Source of the DNA: Thermococcus sp. 21S7
GTDB taxonomy: Archaea; Methanobacteriota_B; Thermococci; Thermococcales; Thermococcaceae
DNA length: 64,000 bases
Direction: 5' to 3'
NCBI RefSeq assembly: GCF_012027615.1
Contig: NZ_SNUT01000001.1
Coordinates: forward strand, 434,001 to 498,000
Below the pieces are notes generated by a model. The model searched no databases. It was not told the origin of the DNA and was given only the letters and a program-made list of their open reading frames with translations. Made by a program: the position numbers and the translations under genes. This document shows positions 41,036 through 48,726 of this stretch, piece by piece (position 1 is the first letter of the stretch; each line of letters begins with the position of its first letter).

Positions 41036-41827
41036 ATGCTGATTGGAGCCGCGGTTATGCCCCACGGAAACCCCGTCCTGGAGCCGGAAGACAATGAGAC
41101 GAGAAGACTCGCGGAGGTTCTCAGGAAGATCGGCGAGGAATTCAAGGGGGCTGAAGCCTACGTCCTCATAAGCCCGCACAACGTCCGGATGAGCGACCAC
41201 CTCGGCGTGGTCATGGCGGAACATCTCGTCTCGTGGCTCGGCTTCGAGGGCAAAGAGCTTCCCGGAGAATGGGAGACCGAGAGAGACCTCGCGGGGAAAA
41301 TCTACGAGTCGGCGAAGGGTGCCGGCCTGCCCGTTGCTGACCTGAACTTCGCCGCACTGAGCGGTGAGTACTCGCGCTGGCCGCTGAGCTGGGGCGAGCT
41401 CATACCCCTGCAGTTCCTCGAAAAGAAGCCGCTCGTTCTTCTGACGCCGGCCAGAAACGTGTCCAGAGAAGCCCTCGTTCGCTTCGGCGAGATTATCGCG
41501 GAGGTCATAGAGGGGAGCGGGAAGCGGGTGGCCTTCATAGCCAGCGCCGACCACGGGCACGGACACGATGAAAAGGGCCCGTACGGGAAGGTGAAGGAGA
41601 GCGAGGAGTACGACAGGCTCGTCATGGAGATTCTCTCTGAAAACAGGCTGGAGAGGCTCATGGAAATCCCCGAAGAGCTCGTGAGAAAAGCCCTGGTGGA
41701 CAGCTACTGGCAGCTCCTCGTCCTCTACGGCCTCCTGAAGAAGGTTCCAATGGAGATAAGGGAAACCGCCTATGCCTGCCCGACCTACTTCGGCATGGCC
41801 GGAGCGCTGTGGGTGATGAAAGCTTGA
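41036..41827 (+). CDS. LigB-family (class III extradiol dioxygenase-like) protein
   Basis: 263 residues of the LigB fold. Possible iron-binding His residues are in VMPHGN near the start, ISPHNVRMSDH, and FIASADHGHGHD. True members split aromatic rings with Fe(II), but archaeal homologues include proteins of other or unknown function such as the Memo family, so substrate is open. TATA GTATAAATGG (about 40998-41007) and GGTGATACC before ATG 41036 support the start. Confidence 0.75.
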   Translation: MLIGAAVMPHGNPVLEPEDNETRRLAEVLRKIGEEFKGAEAYVLISPHNVRMSDHLGVVMAEHLVSWLGFEGKELPGEWETERDLAGKIYESAKGAGLPVADLNFAALSGEYSRWPLSWGELIPLQFLEKKPLVLLTPARNVSREALVRFGEIIAEVIEGSGKRVAFIASADHGHGHDEKGPYGKVKESEEYDRLVMEILSENRLERLMEIPEELVRKALVDSYWQLLVLYGLLKKVPMEIRETAYACPTYFGMAGALWVMKA

Positions 41828-41846
41828 ATGCAACTTATTCATCTTT

Positions 41847-41863
41847 GTGTATTGGAAATACGC
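41847..41863 (+). promoter_or_regulatory. Operator copy 1, DUF4143-ATPase promoter
   Basis: GTGTATTGGAAATACGC, an imperfect palindrome just upstream of the TATA element CTTTTTAAATT. Same sequence family as copy 2, centre 34 bp away. Confidence 0.6.
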
Positions 41864-41880
41864 AAACTTTTTAAATTATT

Positions 41881-41897
41881 GTGTATTGGAGATACAC
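41881..41897 (+). promoter_or_regulatory. Operator copy 2, DUF4143-ATPase promoter
   Basis: GTGTATTGGAGATACAC, a perfect 6-bp inverted repeat around TGGAG. It lies between the TATA element (about 41866-41876) and the ATG at 41898, covering the expected start site. Confidence 0.65.
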
Positions 41898-43175
41898 ATG
41901 ATTTCGCTGATAGAGATTACCGAGGAATACCTCGGCTCCCTCAGGTTTGTCGAGGAAATACCCAGAGAAGTTGAGTTGCCCGTGGGAAGGGACATAAAGG
42001 CCATAATCGGACCCAGAAGGGTAGGGAAAACGTTCCTGCTTCTCAAGAAGGCCGAATCCATCAAAGACCGCCAAAACGTTCTCTACCTTCCCTTCGATGA
42101 ACCGGAGCTGAGAAGACTAACTGCCCGGAAGCTGGCGGAAAGAGTCAGGCGAGAATTCCCCGAAGGCGAGGTGGTTCTTTTCCTCGACGAAGTTCAGGAA
42201 TGGGCGGAATGGGACGTCAAGCTTAGGTGGCTTCACGACGTTGGAGATTTCGATGTATACATCTCGGGCTCCTCCTCCACCCTTATGTCCTCCGAGATAC
42301 CCTCACGCCTGAGGGGAAGGCACGTCTCAAGGCTGATCCTCCCGCTATCATTCAGGGAAATCGCGGGGGAGTCAGGAAAAACCTTCCGGGAAAGGGGGAA
42401 ACTCCAGGCGGTTCTGAAAGATTACATAAAGTGGGGAGGTTTCCCAGAGGTATGGACGACCAGATCAAGGGAGAAGATTATTTCAATACTCGAAACCATG
42501 TTCTACAGGGACATGGTGAAGCGCTTTGCCTTCAGGGATGTCAAAGAATTTCAGGAGGCCTTCTACCACATACTTTCCCTCTACGGCGGCTACTTCACGT
42601 ACCGCTCCCTCCAGAGGGCCCTGAAGGGCCTCGGCGTCGATGCAAACCTGAAGACAGTCATGAACTACCTCAGGGCAATGGAGGAATCCTTCCTCGTTTT
42701 CCAGCTCCCAATATTCTCACCCTCAACGAGGGAGATGATGATAAAACCCAGAAAGCTGTATCTCGTTGACACTGCCTTTGCCTCCCTCTTTTTCAAAGGA
42801 CATGATGAAGGGAGAAAACTGGAGAACCTGGTGTTCATAGAGCTGTTGAGGGAGAAGAGCTACTGGAACCAGTCGCTCGATATCTCCTACTACTCTGACG
42901 GAAAGAACGAGGTCGACTTTGTTGTGCGGGAGGGTCCTCACATAAGGGAGCTCATCCAGGTGACCTACGAACTGAACGCCGCCAACTACGAGAGGGAGGT
43001 TAAAGGGCTAATTAGAACTGCCAAGAGACTCGAAGTGAGTAAACTCACTATAGTCACGATGGAGGATGAAGAACTGCTTAAAGAAGGAAACCTAACGGTG
43101 GAGGTTCTTCCAATTTGGAAGTTCCTCCTCAGAGGACATCGAAGCTTACCTCAAGCAGCCCCTTGCTCCTCCTAA
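41898..43175 (+). CDS. AAA+ ATPase with DUF4143 domain
   Basis: 425 residues. Walker [10 protein letters not shown] near residues 38-46, Walker [12 protein letters not shown] near 93-103, then [12 protein letters not shown] sensor. A helix-turn-helix-like segment ([25 protein letters not shown]) sits near residue 240-265. The DUF4143 end has [13 protein letters not shown]...LIQVTY, a PD-(D/E)XK-like fold with a degenerate ExK. Function unknown; such ATPases are scattered in archaea with patchy distribution. ATG 41898 lies 27 bp from the TATA centre, so it is probably leaderless. The end overlaps AlaX by 47 bp. Confidence 0.85.
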
Positions 43176-43590
43176 AGCGGACCTTTCTGATTTTTATCTC
43201 ACCGATTTCTCCTGTCGTCGCGGTGTGCTCCTTGTTGCACGCGTTGACGTTCCAGCCCTCTATGACGACGACCCGGAGGGTTCTCACCTCCGGCGGAATC
43301 GGGAAGAGGTCGTACATATCCCCTCCGAAGCGCTCCTCGGCTTCCTCTCGCGGAAGCTCGTAAACCTGAACCGGTGCGTTTTCCTTTACCTTCTCGTTGG
43401 TGAGGCGCTCTATCTCGGCGACTTCCTCCGGCGTTGGCTTCCTGTCGAACTTGACGGTTAATCTCCCGTGGTTCCCATCAACGTAAACACTCGCAGTCCA
43501 CTTGGCGTTTTCGCCCAGAACCTTGACGACGGCGCCCTTAACCACGTGCAGGGCAGTGTGGGTTCTAACCTCAACCGACGGCATAGGCAT
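43129..43590 (-). CDS. alaX: Alanyl-tRNA editing protein AlaX (short form)
   Basis: Free-standing editing domain that removes Ser or Gly from tRNA-Ala. 153 residues. Zinc ligands: HTALH near residues 11-15 and CNKEH near 117-121. It corresponds to the AlaX-S type, lacking the N-terminal Gly-rich domain of AlaX-M. ATG 43590 or the second ATG 43584 (MPMPSVEV) are both possible starts. The 3' end overlaps the convergent ATPase gene. Confidence 0.9.
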
Positions 43591-43828
43591 CGTTTCATCT
43601 TCTCGGAGGGATTATTAACTGTTGCGGGACGTTGGGATAGTCCGGAAGGTTATTAATCCCACAGGTAAATTCAAACGGAGATTATTCAGCGGCGCTTGAA
43701 GGTTTTTCAGTTCACTGGTGTCCCAACCGAATAATTCACGCGTTGAGCTTGCACCATTAAACAAAAACCGTTATAAATGCCAAAAACGATACACCAGTGC
43801 CGAATTAACAACTTTTGAGGTGGTCAAC

Positions 43829-45172
43829 ATGGCCGAAAAGAAGAGAAAGAGGGTTCTGATTTTGGGCGCCGCCGGAAGGGACTTCCACAACTTCAACACA
43901 TTCTTCAGGGACAACCCCGACTACGAGGTCGTTGCCTTCACCGCCACTCAGATTCCGGACATCGAGGGAAGGGTCTACCCGCCCGAGCTCGCCGGTGAGC
44001 TCTACCCGAACGGAATTCCGATCTGGAGCGAGGACGACCTTGAGAAGATCATCAAGGAGCACGACATCGACGTTGTCGTCTTCGCCTACTCCGACGTTCC
44101 GCACGAGCACGTCATGCACCTCGCGAGCAGGGCCCACTCAGCTGGTGCCGACTTCTGGCTCCTCGGCCCGAAGAGCACCATGCTCAAGTCCAGCAAGCCG
44201 GTCATAGCGGTCACCGCCGTCAGAACCGGTTGCGGAAAGAGCCAGACCAGCAGGAAGGTCGCCCAGATCCTCCAGGAGATGGGCTACAAGGTCGTCGCGA
44301 TAAGGCACCCAATGCCCTACGGCGACCTCAGGAAGCAGATCGTCCAGCGCTTCGCCAGCTACGAGGACCTCGACAAGCACGAGTGCACCATCGAGGAGCG
44401 CGAGGAGTACGAGCCCTACATCGACAGGGGCATGGTCGTCTACGCGGGCGTTGACTACGAGAAGATTCTCCGCGAGGCCGAGAAGGAGGCCGACATCATC
44501 CTCTGGGACGGCGGAAACAACGACTTCCCGTTCTACGAGCCCGACCTCTGGATAGTCGTCACCGACCCGCACAGGCCCGGCCACGAGCTCAAGTACCACC
44601 CCGGTGAGACCAACTTCCGCGCTGCAGACGTCATAATCATCAACAAGATCGACACCGCCAACCGTGATGACATCCAGAAGGTCCGCGAGAGCATCGAGAA
44701 GGTCAACCCGAACGCCGTCATCATCGACGGTGCCTCACCGCTCTACGTCGACCAGCCGGAGCTCATCAAGGGCAAGCGCGTTCTCGTCGTTGAGGACGGT
44801 CCGACCCTCACCCACGGCGGCATGAAGTACGGAGCCGGTTACATCGCCGCCAAGAAGTACGGAGCTAAGGAAATAATCGACCCGAGGCCCTACGCCGTCG
44901 GCTCGATCATCGACACCTACAAGAAGTACAGCCACCTCGACGTCATCCTGCCGGCAATGGGCTACGGCGAGAAGCAGATCAGGGAGCTTGAGGAGACTAT
45001 CAACCGCGCAGATGCCGACGTCGTCATCATGGGTACCCCCATCGACCTCCGCCGCGTCATGAAGCTCAACAAGCCGGCCGTCAGGGTCAGGTACGAGCTT
45101 GAGGAGATCGGCGAGCCGAAGCTCAGGGACGTCCTCAAGGAGTTCGTCGAGAAGCACGTCAAGAAGGAGTGA
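43829..45172 (+). CDS. Cyclic 2,3-diphosphoglycerate synthetase-like GTPase
   Basis: 447 residues. N-terminal Rossmann-like part (RVLILGAAGRDFHNFNTFFRD), then P-loop TAVRTGCGKSQTSRK near residues 131-145 and NKID-type INKIDTANRDD. The family includes the enzyme that makes cyclic 2,3-diphosphoglycerate in methanogens, but Thermococcales are not known for this solute, so the role here may differ. TATA CGTTATAAATGC (43769-43780) and GAGGTGGT before ATG 43829. Codon use is very strongly biased to C/G-ending codons, as in kbl, which indicates high expression. Confidence 0.8.
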   Translation: MAEKKRKRVLILGAAGRDFHNFNTFFRDNPDYEVVAFTATQIPDIEGRVYPPELAGELYPNGIPIWSEDDLEKIIKEHDIDVVVFAYSDVPHEHVMHLASRAHSAGADFWLLGPKSTMLKSSKPVIAVTAVRTGCGKSQTSRKVAQILQEMGYKVVAIRHPMPYGDLRKQIVQRFASYEDLDKHECTIEEREEYEPYIDRGMVVYAGVDYEKILREAEKEADIILWDGGNNDFPFYEPDLWIVVTDPHRPGHELKYHPGETNFRAADVIIINKIDTANRDDIQKVRESIEKVNPNAVIIDGASPLYVDQPELIKGKRVLVVEDGPTLTHGGMKYGAGYIAAKKYGAKEIIDPRPYAVGSIIDTYKKYSHLDVILPAMGYGEKQIRELEETINRADADVVIMGTPIDLRRVMKLNKPAVRVRYELEEIGEPKLRDVLKEFVEKHVKKE

Positions 45173-45182
45173 TCCTTCTTTT

Positions 45183-45941
45183 TCATTCTCTTCTTCTCAG
45201 AACCAGCCAGACGTCGTTTCCCTCGAACCCACAGCGCCGGTAAAGCGCCTCCGGGTTCGTTCTGTTGTCAAGCTCGCCCGAAACCGTCGTGAAGACCGCC
45301 AGACTCTGCAACCTGCGAAGGAGTTCGAACACCACGGCCTTTCCAAGGCCCATCCCGCGGTAAGAGGGGTGAACCTGTATCCATTCCAGCGAGCCCTCGC
45401 CGATGGAGCGGTCAAGGTCGGCTATTCCAAGGGCAACGGGCTCATCGCCCTCAAGAATCCAGAGCCAGAGCGACCGGTCGAAAGCGGGACTTAACGTCCA
45501 CGATCTGACTTCACTGGAACTCACGTTGATGTCCTCGTAGCAGAGGTTTATGAAATCCGCCACTTTACTGGCCTCAGCAGGTACGTCCACATCACCGAAT
45601 GAAAAGCCTGCCGACAGGAACGGTTCTTCAAGAGCCGCACCTCGGTGGACGAGCCTGAAGTATCTCTCAACATAAAATTCCTCCAGGTCGAGAGTCCTGG
45701 CAAGTCCCGCGTGCAGGAGCGCGAAATCCAGCCCATCAATATCCGGGGGAACGCCGTTCAAGTCCCAGTAGACGTAGAGGCCTCTGCCCTTCCTGGCTTC
45801 TAGATGGACGACTTCCCCTCCGCGAACGTCTATGGAGGTCTCCATTCCGTCAAGCATCGCCAGGGTCTTCCAGAGGGCGTTTGGAAGCGTTCCAGCCGGG
45901 TCCCTGAGGTACAGTTCGGTTAGTGCAGTTTTAAAGTCCAT
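45183..45941 (-). CDS. GNAT-family N-acetyltransferase
   Basis: 252 residues. The C-terminal half is a GNAT domain: IQVHPSYRGMGLGKAVV is the acetyl-CoA loop and NPEALYRRCGF the final motif. The N-terminal half (about 1-120) is a further domain without recognised family, perhaps a degenerate second GNAT. Substrate unknown. ATG 45941 with upstream GGTGCAC-free AT-rich promoter; it is convergent with the GTPase gene, ending 10 bp from its stop. Confidence 0.8.
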   Translation of the reverse strand: MDFKTALTELYLRDPAGTLPNALWKTLAMLDGMETSIDVRGGEVVHLEARKGRGLYVYWDLNGVPPDIDGLDFALLHAGLARTLDLEEFYVERYFRLVHRGAALEEPFLSAGFSFGDVDVPAEASKVADFINLCYEDINVSSSEVRSWTLSPAFDRSLWLWILEGDEPVALGIADLDRSIGEGSLEWIQVHPSYRGMGLGKAVVFELLRRLQSLAVFTTVSGELDNRTNPEALYRRCGFEGNDVWLVLRRRE

Positions 45942-46024
45942 GGGAGCAATACTCCCGAAGAAATTTAAACTTTGGGTTACGGAAAGCTTTTTTATCGCGG
46001 GACGTCACATAGGTAGGTGGTCGT

Positions 46025-46273
46025 ATGGGAGATGCAGTCATCTTTGGGACAGTATGGGCGCTCGGCATGTTCCTAATGGCACTCCAGTTGCTCGCCCTTG
46101 TGTGGGTCATCTACGACGTCCTCACAAAGCAGAAGAGAATGTCGGACGTTGAAAAGGTCATCTGGATAGTCCTAGCGTTCCTCTTCACGATACTGGGAGC
46201 GCTGGTGTACTACCTGCTCGTCAAGAGAAATGGCAAATACGAGGAGAACCGCGAGGAGCCGCCCGTCTACTGA
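46025..46273 (+). CDS. Small membrane protein, PLDc_N-like
   Basis: 82 residues with two membrane helices (LGMFLMALQLLALVWVIYDV and KVIWIVLAFLFTILGALVYYLLV) and a polar tail. The VEKVIWIV...LGALVYYLLV pattern is that of the phospholipase D-nuclease N-terminal domain, a membrane anchor found alone in many small proteins. GGTAGGTGG precedes ATG 46025. No known partner. Confidence 0.75.
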   Translation: MGDAVIFGTVWALGMFLMALQLLALVWVIYDVLTKQKRMSDVEKVIWIVLAFLFTILGALVYYLLVKRNGKYEENREEPPVY

Positions 46274-46352
46274 TCAGGGACCAAATGCAATGCAGGAAAT
46301 CCTTATATAGACCGGAAATGAGATGGAACCACTGAAGGCGGGAGGGGCCGTA

Positions 46353-46850
46353 ATGAACGAAACCGTCAGCAAAACGGACGCTTTTTTGAAAAACAATGGT
46401 GTCTGGGAAGGGGAGTTTTCAAACTACGTTAACCAGATGGAAGGAATCACACAGCGCGGGAAGATGATAATCGAGGTTGAAGCCACTCCGGGGGGCACTA
46501 TAATCCAGAGGAACTTCTTTGTGAGACCAGACGGAACAAAGAGCGATTACGTAGGGATTGCACGGATGAGACTCGATGGGAACCGGCTGTTATGGGTAGG
46601 GGAAGAGGCCGAAGACCCGAACACTGCCGAGGAAATCAGGAACCATTCCTTTGAGGGTATCGTTACCGAAGATCAGATATACATAGTGGAACTCTACGAG
46701 GCAGTTGGAAAGGACGGAACCATCGAACGCAGGCGCAACACCACCCACTACTACTTCCTGAGCGATAAAGAAGCCGTGATGACCGGCAGCGTCTACGTAA
46801 ACGATGAGCTACTCGTGTTCGCGAGTACAAGGCTGAGGAGAGTGAGGTAA
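46353..46850 (+). CDS. Hypothetical beta-rich protein
   Basis: 165 residues, soluble, with alternating polar and hydrophobic residues suggesting a lipocalin-like or other beta-barrel (GVWEGEFSNYV ... RGKMIIEVEATPGGTIIQRNFFV ... THYYFLSDKEAVMTG). No catalytic motif recognised. GGGAGGGG precedes ATG 46353 and TATA CCTTATATAG lies near 46301-46310. Confidence 0.65.
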   Translation: MNETVSKTDAFLKNNGVWEGEFSNYVNQMEGITQRGKMIIEVEATPGGTIIQRNFFVRPDGTKSDYVGIARMRLDGNRLLWVGEEAEDPNTAEEIRNHSFEGIVTEDQIYIVELYEAVGKDGTIERRRNTTHYYFLSDKEAVMTGSVYVNDELLVFASTRLRRVR

Positions 46851-47056
46851 CCAGAGCGGATACCCGTCCACACCCGCCGCTGACAACCACCGGAAGCCTT
46901 TTAGGGATAACGTCCAAGTTATTCTGCCCGGGGAGTGCCGCCGAAGGCGGAGCCGATGAACTTGGGCGGGTTATTACCCCCTTTTCACGGCGTTTCTGAG
47001 AAGTTGTGACGCAACTACGTCCGCCTTCCAGTATTATATCCTCCGGGAGGAGGGAA

Positions 47057-47474
47057 ATGGACCTTCATGAATACCTAATGCTGGGAGAATATGTTATAAT
47101 CGCGTAAAAGTTGATGGGATCTACGACCATTTAGCCATTACAAACAAAAGAATTATCCTGTTCAGAACATCCAAATCAGGCCTTTTACGGAGAAAATCTA
47201 CTGAAATTAATTCCCTAAAGTCATACCCCCTAAAAGGTGTTAAAGAGATCTCCATTCAGATAACACATAACACCTTTTCACTGTATTATATCGAATGCGT
47301 GCGATGAATGAGAATCGTGATTTGGTCTTCAGCCTCAGAATAGACCCAAAAATTGGTAGAACTGACTTACGCACTGTTTATGCCATACTCTGGACGACGT
47401 TTGAAAGCATCTTCACACAGTACGAGACAGAGCCAACGATCGAACTAACAACATTCCATCTCGTGGATATTTAG
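47057..47474 (+). pseudogene. Broken PH-domain-like gene
   Basis: Starts ATG 47057 after GGGAGGAGGG and reads MDLHEYLMLGEYVIIA, then stops. Shifting frame at about 47101 gives VKVDGIYDHLAITNKRIILF and further to a TGA near 47306; a second shift there gives NENRDLVFSLRIDPK...TTFESIFTQYE to the TAG at 47472. The joined product of about 138 residues resembles a bacterial/archaeal PH-like domain protein. Two frameshifts indicate decay. AT-rich. Confidence 0.6.
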
Positions 47475-47485
47475 TTTATAAATTC

Positions 47486-47504
47486 TGAGAACTCACACTT
47501 CTCA
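47486..47504 (+). promoter_or_regulatory. Operator copy 1, second DUF4143-ATPase promoter
   Basis: TGAGAACTCACACTTCTCA, palindrome with 6-bp perfect outer arms, located just upstream of the TATA box CCTTTATAAATCC (47506-47518). Confidence 0.65.
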
Positions 47505-47518
47505 ACCTTTATAAATCC

Positions 47519-47537
47519 TTGAGAACTAACAGTTCTC
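47519..47537 (+). promoter_or_regulatory. Operator copy 2, second DUF4143-ATPase promoter
   Basis: GAGAACT-AAC-AGTTCTC (47521-47537), a perfect 7-bp inverted repeat directly downstream of the TATA box and upstream of ATG 47548. Centre 34 bp from copy 1. Confidence 0.7.
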
Positions 47538-47547
47538 GGGTGTTAGT

Positions 47548-48726
47548 ATGAAGCTTGGGGATTTGAGCTACATGAACCCCTGGTGGGAAGGAAAAGAAGA
47601 CTACCACGCGAGACGCTGGAGAGAGCAGAGAATCCATTGGTGGCCTAAATGGGCTGATGAGCTCTCACTCGAACCGTTCTCGCTCAACTTCGTCCTCGGC
47701 CCGAGGCAGGTGGGAAAGACGACGGGGATAAAACTCCTCATCCAGGAACTCCTGAAAGAAAATCCACCGGAGTCGGTTCTATACATCAACGTTGAGATTC
47801 TTCCAGACTACAGAACCCTCTCAGCCTTGATAAGGGAGTTCCAGGAACTAAAGGAGAATGAGGGCATCAAAAGGGGATACATCTTCCTGGATGAAGCCTC
47901 ATCACTTGAAGGCTGGTGGAGAGGGGTTAAGCCGCTCATCGATGCGGGTCTCTTGGAGAACGACGTGGTCACGGTTACGGGATCAAGTTCTCTGAGGGTG
48001 AAGAGAGACATAGAGATGTTCCCGGGAAGAAGGGGAAAAGGGATAACTCTTGAAGTCATGCCACTATCTTTCAGGGAATACGTTGGGGTTATGGATCTGA
48101 AAAGACCGGAACTTCACAGGGAAAAGACGCTGAGACTATTTGAAGAGTACCTGAAAACCGGTGGTTTCCCGGGATCAATCAACGGCCTTCCCATGGACGA
48201 TCTTCTTGGGGCTTACATAGGGGAACTCGTCCGTTTCGGAAAGAGCCTTGAGATAGCCAGAGAAACCATGGCGGCAGTAATCCGAAGCGCCCCTTCGGCA
48301 ACGAGCTTTAGGGCATTAGCTAAAGCCACCTCGGGCTACTCCTACAAGGTGGTGCAGGACTACATCGAGTTCTTTAGGGAGCTGTATGTGCTCGGGATAG
48401 CGTACCTCAGACAGGGAGAGCAGGTGCTCTACAAGCGGGAGAAGAAGTTCTTCTTTAGGGATCCGCTTTTGGCGAGGCTCTTCTCCGCCTGGAGCGGTAC
48501 CCAATTAAGAGAGGAGGCCCTCTACGAATGGCTCGTCCAAGAGCACCTATACCGGAGGTTCGGTGAAGTTTACTATTATAGAAACTCCTATGAGGTTGAT
48601 GCGATAGTAGGTGACTTGAAAGTTGAGGTAAAGGCAGGGAAAGCCCACAGGAAGTATCCAAAAAACGTTAATGTGCTCGAAAAGGAAGATGTGCCCTTTT
48701 TCCTCCTTGACGCTACTCCCCCATAA
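47548..48726 (+). CDS. AAA+ ATPase with DUF4143 domain, second
   Basis: 392 residues. Walker A LGPRQVGKTTG near residue 50-60, Walker B YIFLDEASSLEGWW near 110, VTGSSSLRVKRD sensor. A winged-helix-like segment TSFRALAKATSGYSYKVVQDYI is near 250-272. The nuclease-like end has YYYRNSYEVDAIVGDLKVEVKAG, with intact Asp and ExK, so it may be a catalytically able PD-(D/E)XK fold. Related to the ATPase at 41898-43175 but diverged. The end overlaps YjbQ by 14 bp. Function unknown. Confidence 0.85.
   Translation: MKLGDLSYMNPWWEGKEDYHARRWREQRIHWWPKWADELSLEPFSLNFVLGPRQVGKTTGIKLLIQELLKENPPESVLYINVEILPDYRTLSALIREFQELKENEGIKRGYIFLDEASSLEGWWRGVKPLIDAGLLENDVVTVTGSSSLRVKRDIEMFPGRRGKGITLEVMPLSFREYVGVMDLKRPELHREKTLRLFEEYLKTGGFPGSINGLPMDDLLGAYIGELVRFGKSLEIARETMAAVIRSAPSATSFRALAKATSGYSYKVVQDYIEFFRELYVLGIAYLRQGEQVLYKREKKFFFRDPLLARLFSAWSGTQLREEALYEWLVQEHLYRRFGEVYYYRNSYEVDAIVGDLKVEVKAGKAHRKYPKNVNVLEKEDVPFFLLDATPP

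Follow-up and report, generated by a model that had tools for sequence, protein, structure and literature searches.

The 64,000-nucleotide window analysed (contig NZ_SNUT01000001.1 of Thermococcus sp. 21S7, positions 434,001 to 498,000) carries two ATPase genes on the forward strand, here called ATPase 1 (41898..43175, 425 aa) and ATPase 2 (47548..48726, 392 aa, with its ATG at 47548). The first product comprises an AAA_14 domain (residues 32-155), a winged helix (about 212-276) and a PD-(D/E)XK-like DUF4143 C-terminus, and the second an AAA_14 domain (residues 47-178), a winged helix (about 234-303) and a C-terminal nuclease-like segment. The catalytic pattern of PD-(D/E)XK nucleases is D...(E/Q)xK, and the nuclease-like motif reads EVD...EVK in ATPase 2. 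ATPase 1 and its wider group have EVD...QVT in place of EVD...ExK; D340 does not vary in this group, and Q354 hardly does. Both proteins exceeded the curated cut-off of AAA_14 (PF13173; 27 bits), scoring 105.7 bits (ATPase 1) and 88.2 bits (ATPase 2). The preliminary description of this DNA had placed both genes in DUF4143 (PF13635; cut-off 28.1 bits), an assignment that held for ATPase 1 (68.7 bits) but not for ATPase 2, which at 24.2 bits (E 3.2e-5) is, judging from its sequence, a divergent relative of DUF4143 and not a member.

The two proteins also matched the PADLOC profile of PDC-S01 (PDLC04787), both over most of the length of the profile, ATPase 1 at residues 31-412 (E 7.6e-90) and ATPase 2 at residues 48-354 (E 2.2e-31). 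PDC-S01 is a published, unvalidated putative defence candidate made of a single gene, in which an AAA-type ATPase is fused to a PD-(D/E)XK-like domain (PMC12988326), and the two ATPases share its protein family and single-gene make-up as far as the portion of that report considered here describes them. The same portion places PDC-S01 fourth in frequency among the defence (candidate) systems of prokaryotes, counts about 29,000 bacterial relatives in its survey and states that most such defence candidates still await experimental validation; it describes the family by means of homology, prevalence and embedding, and within that portion operators and self-regulation are not mentioned (PMC12988326). 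Our literature searches found no account of DUF4143/COG1373 or PDC-S01 operators. Some bacterial relatives lie within defence loci, namely between HsdR and a DNA methyltransferase in Treponema (L431), between two Eco57I-type methylases in Prevotella (L478) and between cas3 and cas4 in Arcobacter (L468).

AlphaFold models (mean pLDDT 89.6 for ATPase 1 and 85.3 for ATPase 2) predicted a winged helix in both proteins, with pLDDT of about 88-95 across the segment, in keeping with the helix-turn-helix-like segment proposed earlier. In ATPase 1 this segment (residues 212-276, encoded by 42531..42725 on the forward strand) is composed of helices at 215-226, 235-244 and 251-263 and a wing strand at 267-270. 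A search of PDB sequences with the ATPases gave no useful match, and Foldseek against the PDB retrieved AAA+/STAND proteins with winged helices, including DNA-bound Orc1/Cdc6, NRC resistosomes and Avs proteins, at low full-length TM-scores of about 0.2-0.4. The predicted fold, an AAA+ core followed by a winged helix, is like that of archaeal Orc1/Cdc6 and STAND NTPases, although, besides the low TM-scores, the candidate sites of the ATPases are those of their own promoters and no origin binding is implied.

Each gene is preceded by a pair of candidate operator palindromes, read directly from the sequence and measured. In the promoter of ATPase 1 these are TGTGTATTGGAAATACGCA (41846..41864, centre 41855), a motif that recurs in ATPase 1 orthologs, and TGTGTATTGGAGATACACA (41880..41898, centre 41889), which ends on the A of the start codon (41898); the TATA element TTTTTAAAT (about 41868..41876, forward strand) lies between them, at a position relative to the start codon that would fit a leaderless archaeal promoter. 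In the promoter of ATPase 2, the palindromes TGAGAACTCACACTTCTCA (47486..47504, centre 47495) and TGAGAACTAACAGTTCTCG (47520..47538, centre 47529) enclose the TATA box TTTATAAAT (47508..47516, forward strand). Both palindromes of either promoter are 19 bp long with centres exactly 34 bp apart, which reproduces the shared geometry reported in the preliminary description, as well as its observation that the operator sequences of the two loci are unrelated.

Promoters were scored as two 18-position palindromes plus their mutual identity, at every centre distance from 12 to 70 bp, for 173 distinct AAA_14 ATPases from Thermococcaceae and for 865 shuffled promoters with the same dinucleotides. The pairs described above were the top-scoring ones of their promoters, with 22.0 against 17.0 for the next best in ATPase 1 and 21.5 against 16.5 in ATPase 2. 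The best spacing fell at 33-35 bp in 134 of the 173 ATPase promoters versus 49 of the 865 shuffles, so that the spacing first seen at two loci is kept family-wide and the preliminary interpretation is not refuted on this count. Scores of at least 19 were reached by 117/173 ATPase promoters and by 4/865 shuffles; among these, 102 of the ATPase promoters and none of the shuffles had the pair at 33-35 bp. When 1.66 Mb of the host genome was scanned without bias, six pairs at 33-35 bp scored at least 20, four of them in AAA_14 ATPase promoters and the other two at sites where related genomes have an AAA_14 ATPase that the host lacks. A third palindrome of the same sequence, present in 22 promoters, continued the 33-35 bp lattice in every case. 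Within each clade the palindromes hold a fixed register to the start codon, normally enclosing the TATA, and the last palindrome mostly ends at or immediately before the start codon. Because the L002/L215 and L216-L220 clades keep a spacing of 34 bp with the TATA downstream of the palindrome array, this spacing is not imposed by the core promoter. The same downstream placement was considered for the ATPase 1 orthologs L211, L213 and L258 and rejected, a third, degenerate palindrome being found to abut the start codon. Three loci of another family of the same class carry TACTCATTnnnAATGAGTA pairs at 33 bp, likewise with the TATA between.

Among the strong AAA_14 ATPases of the host genome, five of eight have a palindrome pair. 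Across the wider sample, the L006 and L009 clades carry one palindrome only, and no clear pair was found at the promoters of the L001, L007 and L184 clades. The 33-bp pairs of the L009/L012, L001/L037 and L184/L192 clades are products of repeated TATA boxes or unrelated repeats and were discarded as operators. The host also contains palindrome arrays with 32-bp spacing and no adjoining AAA_14 ATPase at C2:111640-111730 (three copies of GAAAGTGCACTTTC) and at C1:372250-372310 (two copies of GAGTTACCAAAATTGGCAACTC).

Whereas the operator spacing is common to the family, the palindrome sequence is kept within an ortholog clade and is unrelated between clades. About 30 orthologs of ATPase 2, which are 76-92% identical and come from several genera, keep both the spacing and the motif TGAGAACT (TGAGAAnnn...TTCTCA), and TGAGAA is retained in L375/L376 (62-66% identical). 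Paralogs of this group at 45-51% identity carry TTTGCAnT...TGCAAA instead, likewise at 34 bp. The helix SYKVVQDY pairs with TGAGAA down to 62% identity and the helix SPHTARDY with TTTGCA. The palindromes of other clades have the motifs TGTGTATT, TGTTTCCC, TGGTACAG, TGTTTTAT and TTGTACTG, and also TGGTAAAG, TTTACCAG, TTTGTGGTT and TTGGTCGT. With at most one mismatch over 16 fixed positions, the operators of ATPase 1 and ATPase 2 occurred only at their own promoters in the 1.86 Mb, of a 2.37-Mb host genome, covered by the search. In L287 (G036), a second TGAGAAC pair with a TATA between lies at about 1090-1145, past the 3' end of the ATPase 2 ortholog, where it adjoins the end of a YjbQ-like gene.

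Operator similarity was compared with protein similarity per domain among 21-57 non-redundant ATPases, depending on the redundancy threshold, using a joint regression on the identities of the AAA core, the linker, the HTH (the winged-helix segment, residues 212-276 of ATPase 1) and the C-terminus. Operator similarity had a single strong predictor at each threshold, namely HTH identity (coefficient 0.46-0.66, permutation p = 0.0005, the floor of the test), in agreement with the covariation anticipated in the preliminary description. The AAA core and the C-terminus had no predictive value in this regression, and the linker contributed in the largest set only (0.23, p = 0.003). A 60-residue sliding window gave high coefficients at 187-294, with the peak at 187-282 on the winged-helix segment; almost everywhere outside this region the values were near zero or negative, the exception being a modest increase (up to 0.23) at 31-126. 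In the subset of pairs below 45% identity, every segment correlated only weakly with the operator, the HTH rank correlation being 0.08-0.18. A 15-residue residual-correlation scan gave several peaks beyond the recognition helix and did not cleanly localise the specificity. Operator and HTH share the inheritance of the gene, and the regression controls for the remaining domains; wHTH domains are also able to bind proteins.

ATPase 1 lies between an upstream gene (41036-41827) and an AlaX-like gene, a site at which it was present in 6 of the 30 loci compared. In many genomes these two flanking genes are directly adjacent, and in L438, L442, L443, L446, L460 and L464 the site (41827-43129) holds a VapB-like antitoxin gene or nothing. 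As a location for defence or toxin-antitoxin genes the site is variable, and the patchy presence of ATPase 1 there, together with the strong PDC-S01 match, lends weight to the earlier suggestion of a defence-like family. An ATPase 1-type operator pair stands just after the upstream gene in G021 (L454), where the ATPase is absent; no copy of ATPase 1 was detectable in this genome. The host has scars of the same kind at C3:100917-101001 and C6:82866-82930, where the operator pairs are those of ATPase clades found elsewhere and where, compared with gene-bearing genomes, the ATPase is missing between the operator and the downstream flank; at the C6 site the last part of the ATPase ORF persists. 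The three orphan operators, namely the two host scars and L454, show gene loss and not mobility. The mobile character also suggested for the family has weak support, these scars recording repeated gene loss and no mobility machinery having been seen. In L240, similar stretches of about 190 bp lie on either side of the ATPase gene (102-288 and about 1745-1931), and since both match host C6:82.67-82.86 kb, the gene seems to be flanked by direct repeats of this length.

Because the private paired sites track its DNA-reading domain, each AAA_14/DUF4143 (PDC-S01) ATPase very probably controls the transcription of its own gene, acting through its wHTH on a private operator. Sequence comparison demonstrated the geometry, the clade-private sequences, their uniqueness to the own promoter and the tracking of the operator by the wHTH, all of which favour the self-regulation by locus-specific factors that had been put forward. 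The internal winged helix, with the ATPase core before it and the PD-(D/E)XK-like C-terminus after it, would bind the palindromes of its own promoter, presumably as one dimer per palindrome. Two or three palindromes on a lattice of about 34 bp suggest that the protein, once bound, probably forms oligomers along the DNA, and two or three dimers would then touch along the lattice, covering BRE/TATA and the start. Since BRE/TATA and the transcription start lie between the last two palindromes in most clades, a bound protein should keep TBP/TFB and RNA polymerase off the promoter. Given autoregulation, it is likely that the control is autorepression, holding a candidate defence nuclease at a low level. 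Self-repression of a putative nuclease, coupled to a nucleotide switch, could provide a low, releasable store, and private codes may permit the independent control of several paralogs per genome.

Self-activation or a bistable switch, with the ATPase bound to its own sites, would accord with the L002/L215 and L216-L220 palindromes, all of which occupy an activator-like place upstream of the TATA, but the sites enclose TATA and start in most clades, and we consider this reading unlikely. It is very improbable that the operators are instead recognised by independent, unlinked transcription factors, each serving a single ATPase gene. Thermococcales do have many small HTH regulators, but every clade would then need a dedicated regulator inherited together with each ATPase. 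No regulator gene adjoins ATPase 1 or ATPase 2, and the motif, which is private to the promoter of the ATPase, tracks the wHTH segment of the ATPase itself. The palindromes could also be targets of the ATPase-nuclease for a non-regulatory use, such as mobility, nicking or the anchoring of a defence complex, their promoter placement being secondary. The PD-(D/E)XK-like C-terminus, seen in the present sequences and described in the portion of the PDC-S01 report considered (PMC12988326), would suit such a use, as would the coming and going of the gene at fixed sites with operators left behind and the similar stretches around the gene in L240. Against it, the palindromes stand 5' of the gene in a clade-specific fixed register to the start codon, normally around the TATA, and 95 of the 97 loci scanned have no further palindrome copy past the 3' end of the gene; we give this reading little credence. 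It is exceedingly improbable that the palindromes act as RNA hairpins or arise as an artefact of AT-rich promoter composition, for although the downstream palindrome is possibly transcribed in part, the upstream one precedes TATA and start and would be outside the transcript, and the shuffles that reached the score never did so at 33-35 bp.

Autorepression of the ATPases would be similar in outline to the type II toxin-antitoxin operons and the controller (C) proteins of restriction-modification systems, in which palindromic promoter operators keep the expression of a potentially host-harming module low. The ATPases differ in that neither an antitoxin nor a C protein is encoded separately; the putative effector contains the putative DNA reader as one of its own domains. 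Many archaeal ATPases of the ATPase_2 family (PF01637), in the host genome and in the genus, also have private palindromic promoter repeats; these differ from the AAA_14 operators in being spaced by 15-16 bp (long form) or 18-19 bp (short form) and in lying between the TATA and the start codon. Examples are the promoters L072, L075, L082, L383 and L407, and the centre of the repeat is often GGTG or GGGG.

Plasmid-borne relatives served as the bacterial sample. The first set comprised 15 distinct loci, including one from an archaeon; five of the 15 had their best spacing at 39-40 bp, and two Bacteroides loci had theirs at 33 or 66 bp. In six fresh loci, taken once this spacing had been proposed, it was 39-40 bp in three, with shuffle p values of 0.005 (L475), 0.07 (L476) and 0.195 (L477). 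The relatives named for this spacing are L434, L435, L469, L472, L475, L476 and L477. A 39-40 bp spacing in bacterial PDC-S01 relatives is thus suggested by these sequences and not established. We advance only tentatively the wider proposal that PDC-S01 ATPases make up a large group of self-repressing sensor-effectors insulated from one another and bound as oligomers to private palindrome lattices, in which infection would bring about ATP-dependent release and so lift the repression of the gene, with a plan extending to bacterial relatives at 39-40 bp.

Since orphan operators remain where the gene has gone, private operators mark the sites of lost genes. A private operator also predicts the DNA bound by each PDC-S01 protein and would allow ligand or virus triggers to be read out simply in vitro, and the dozens of natural wHTH-operator pairs derived from one fold may serve as material for reading a recognition code.
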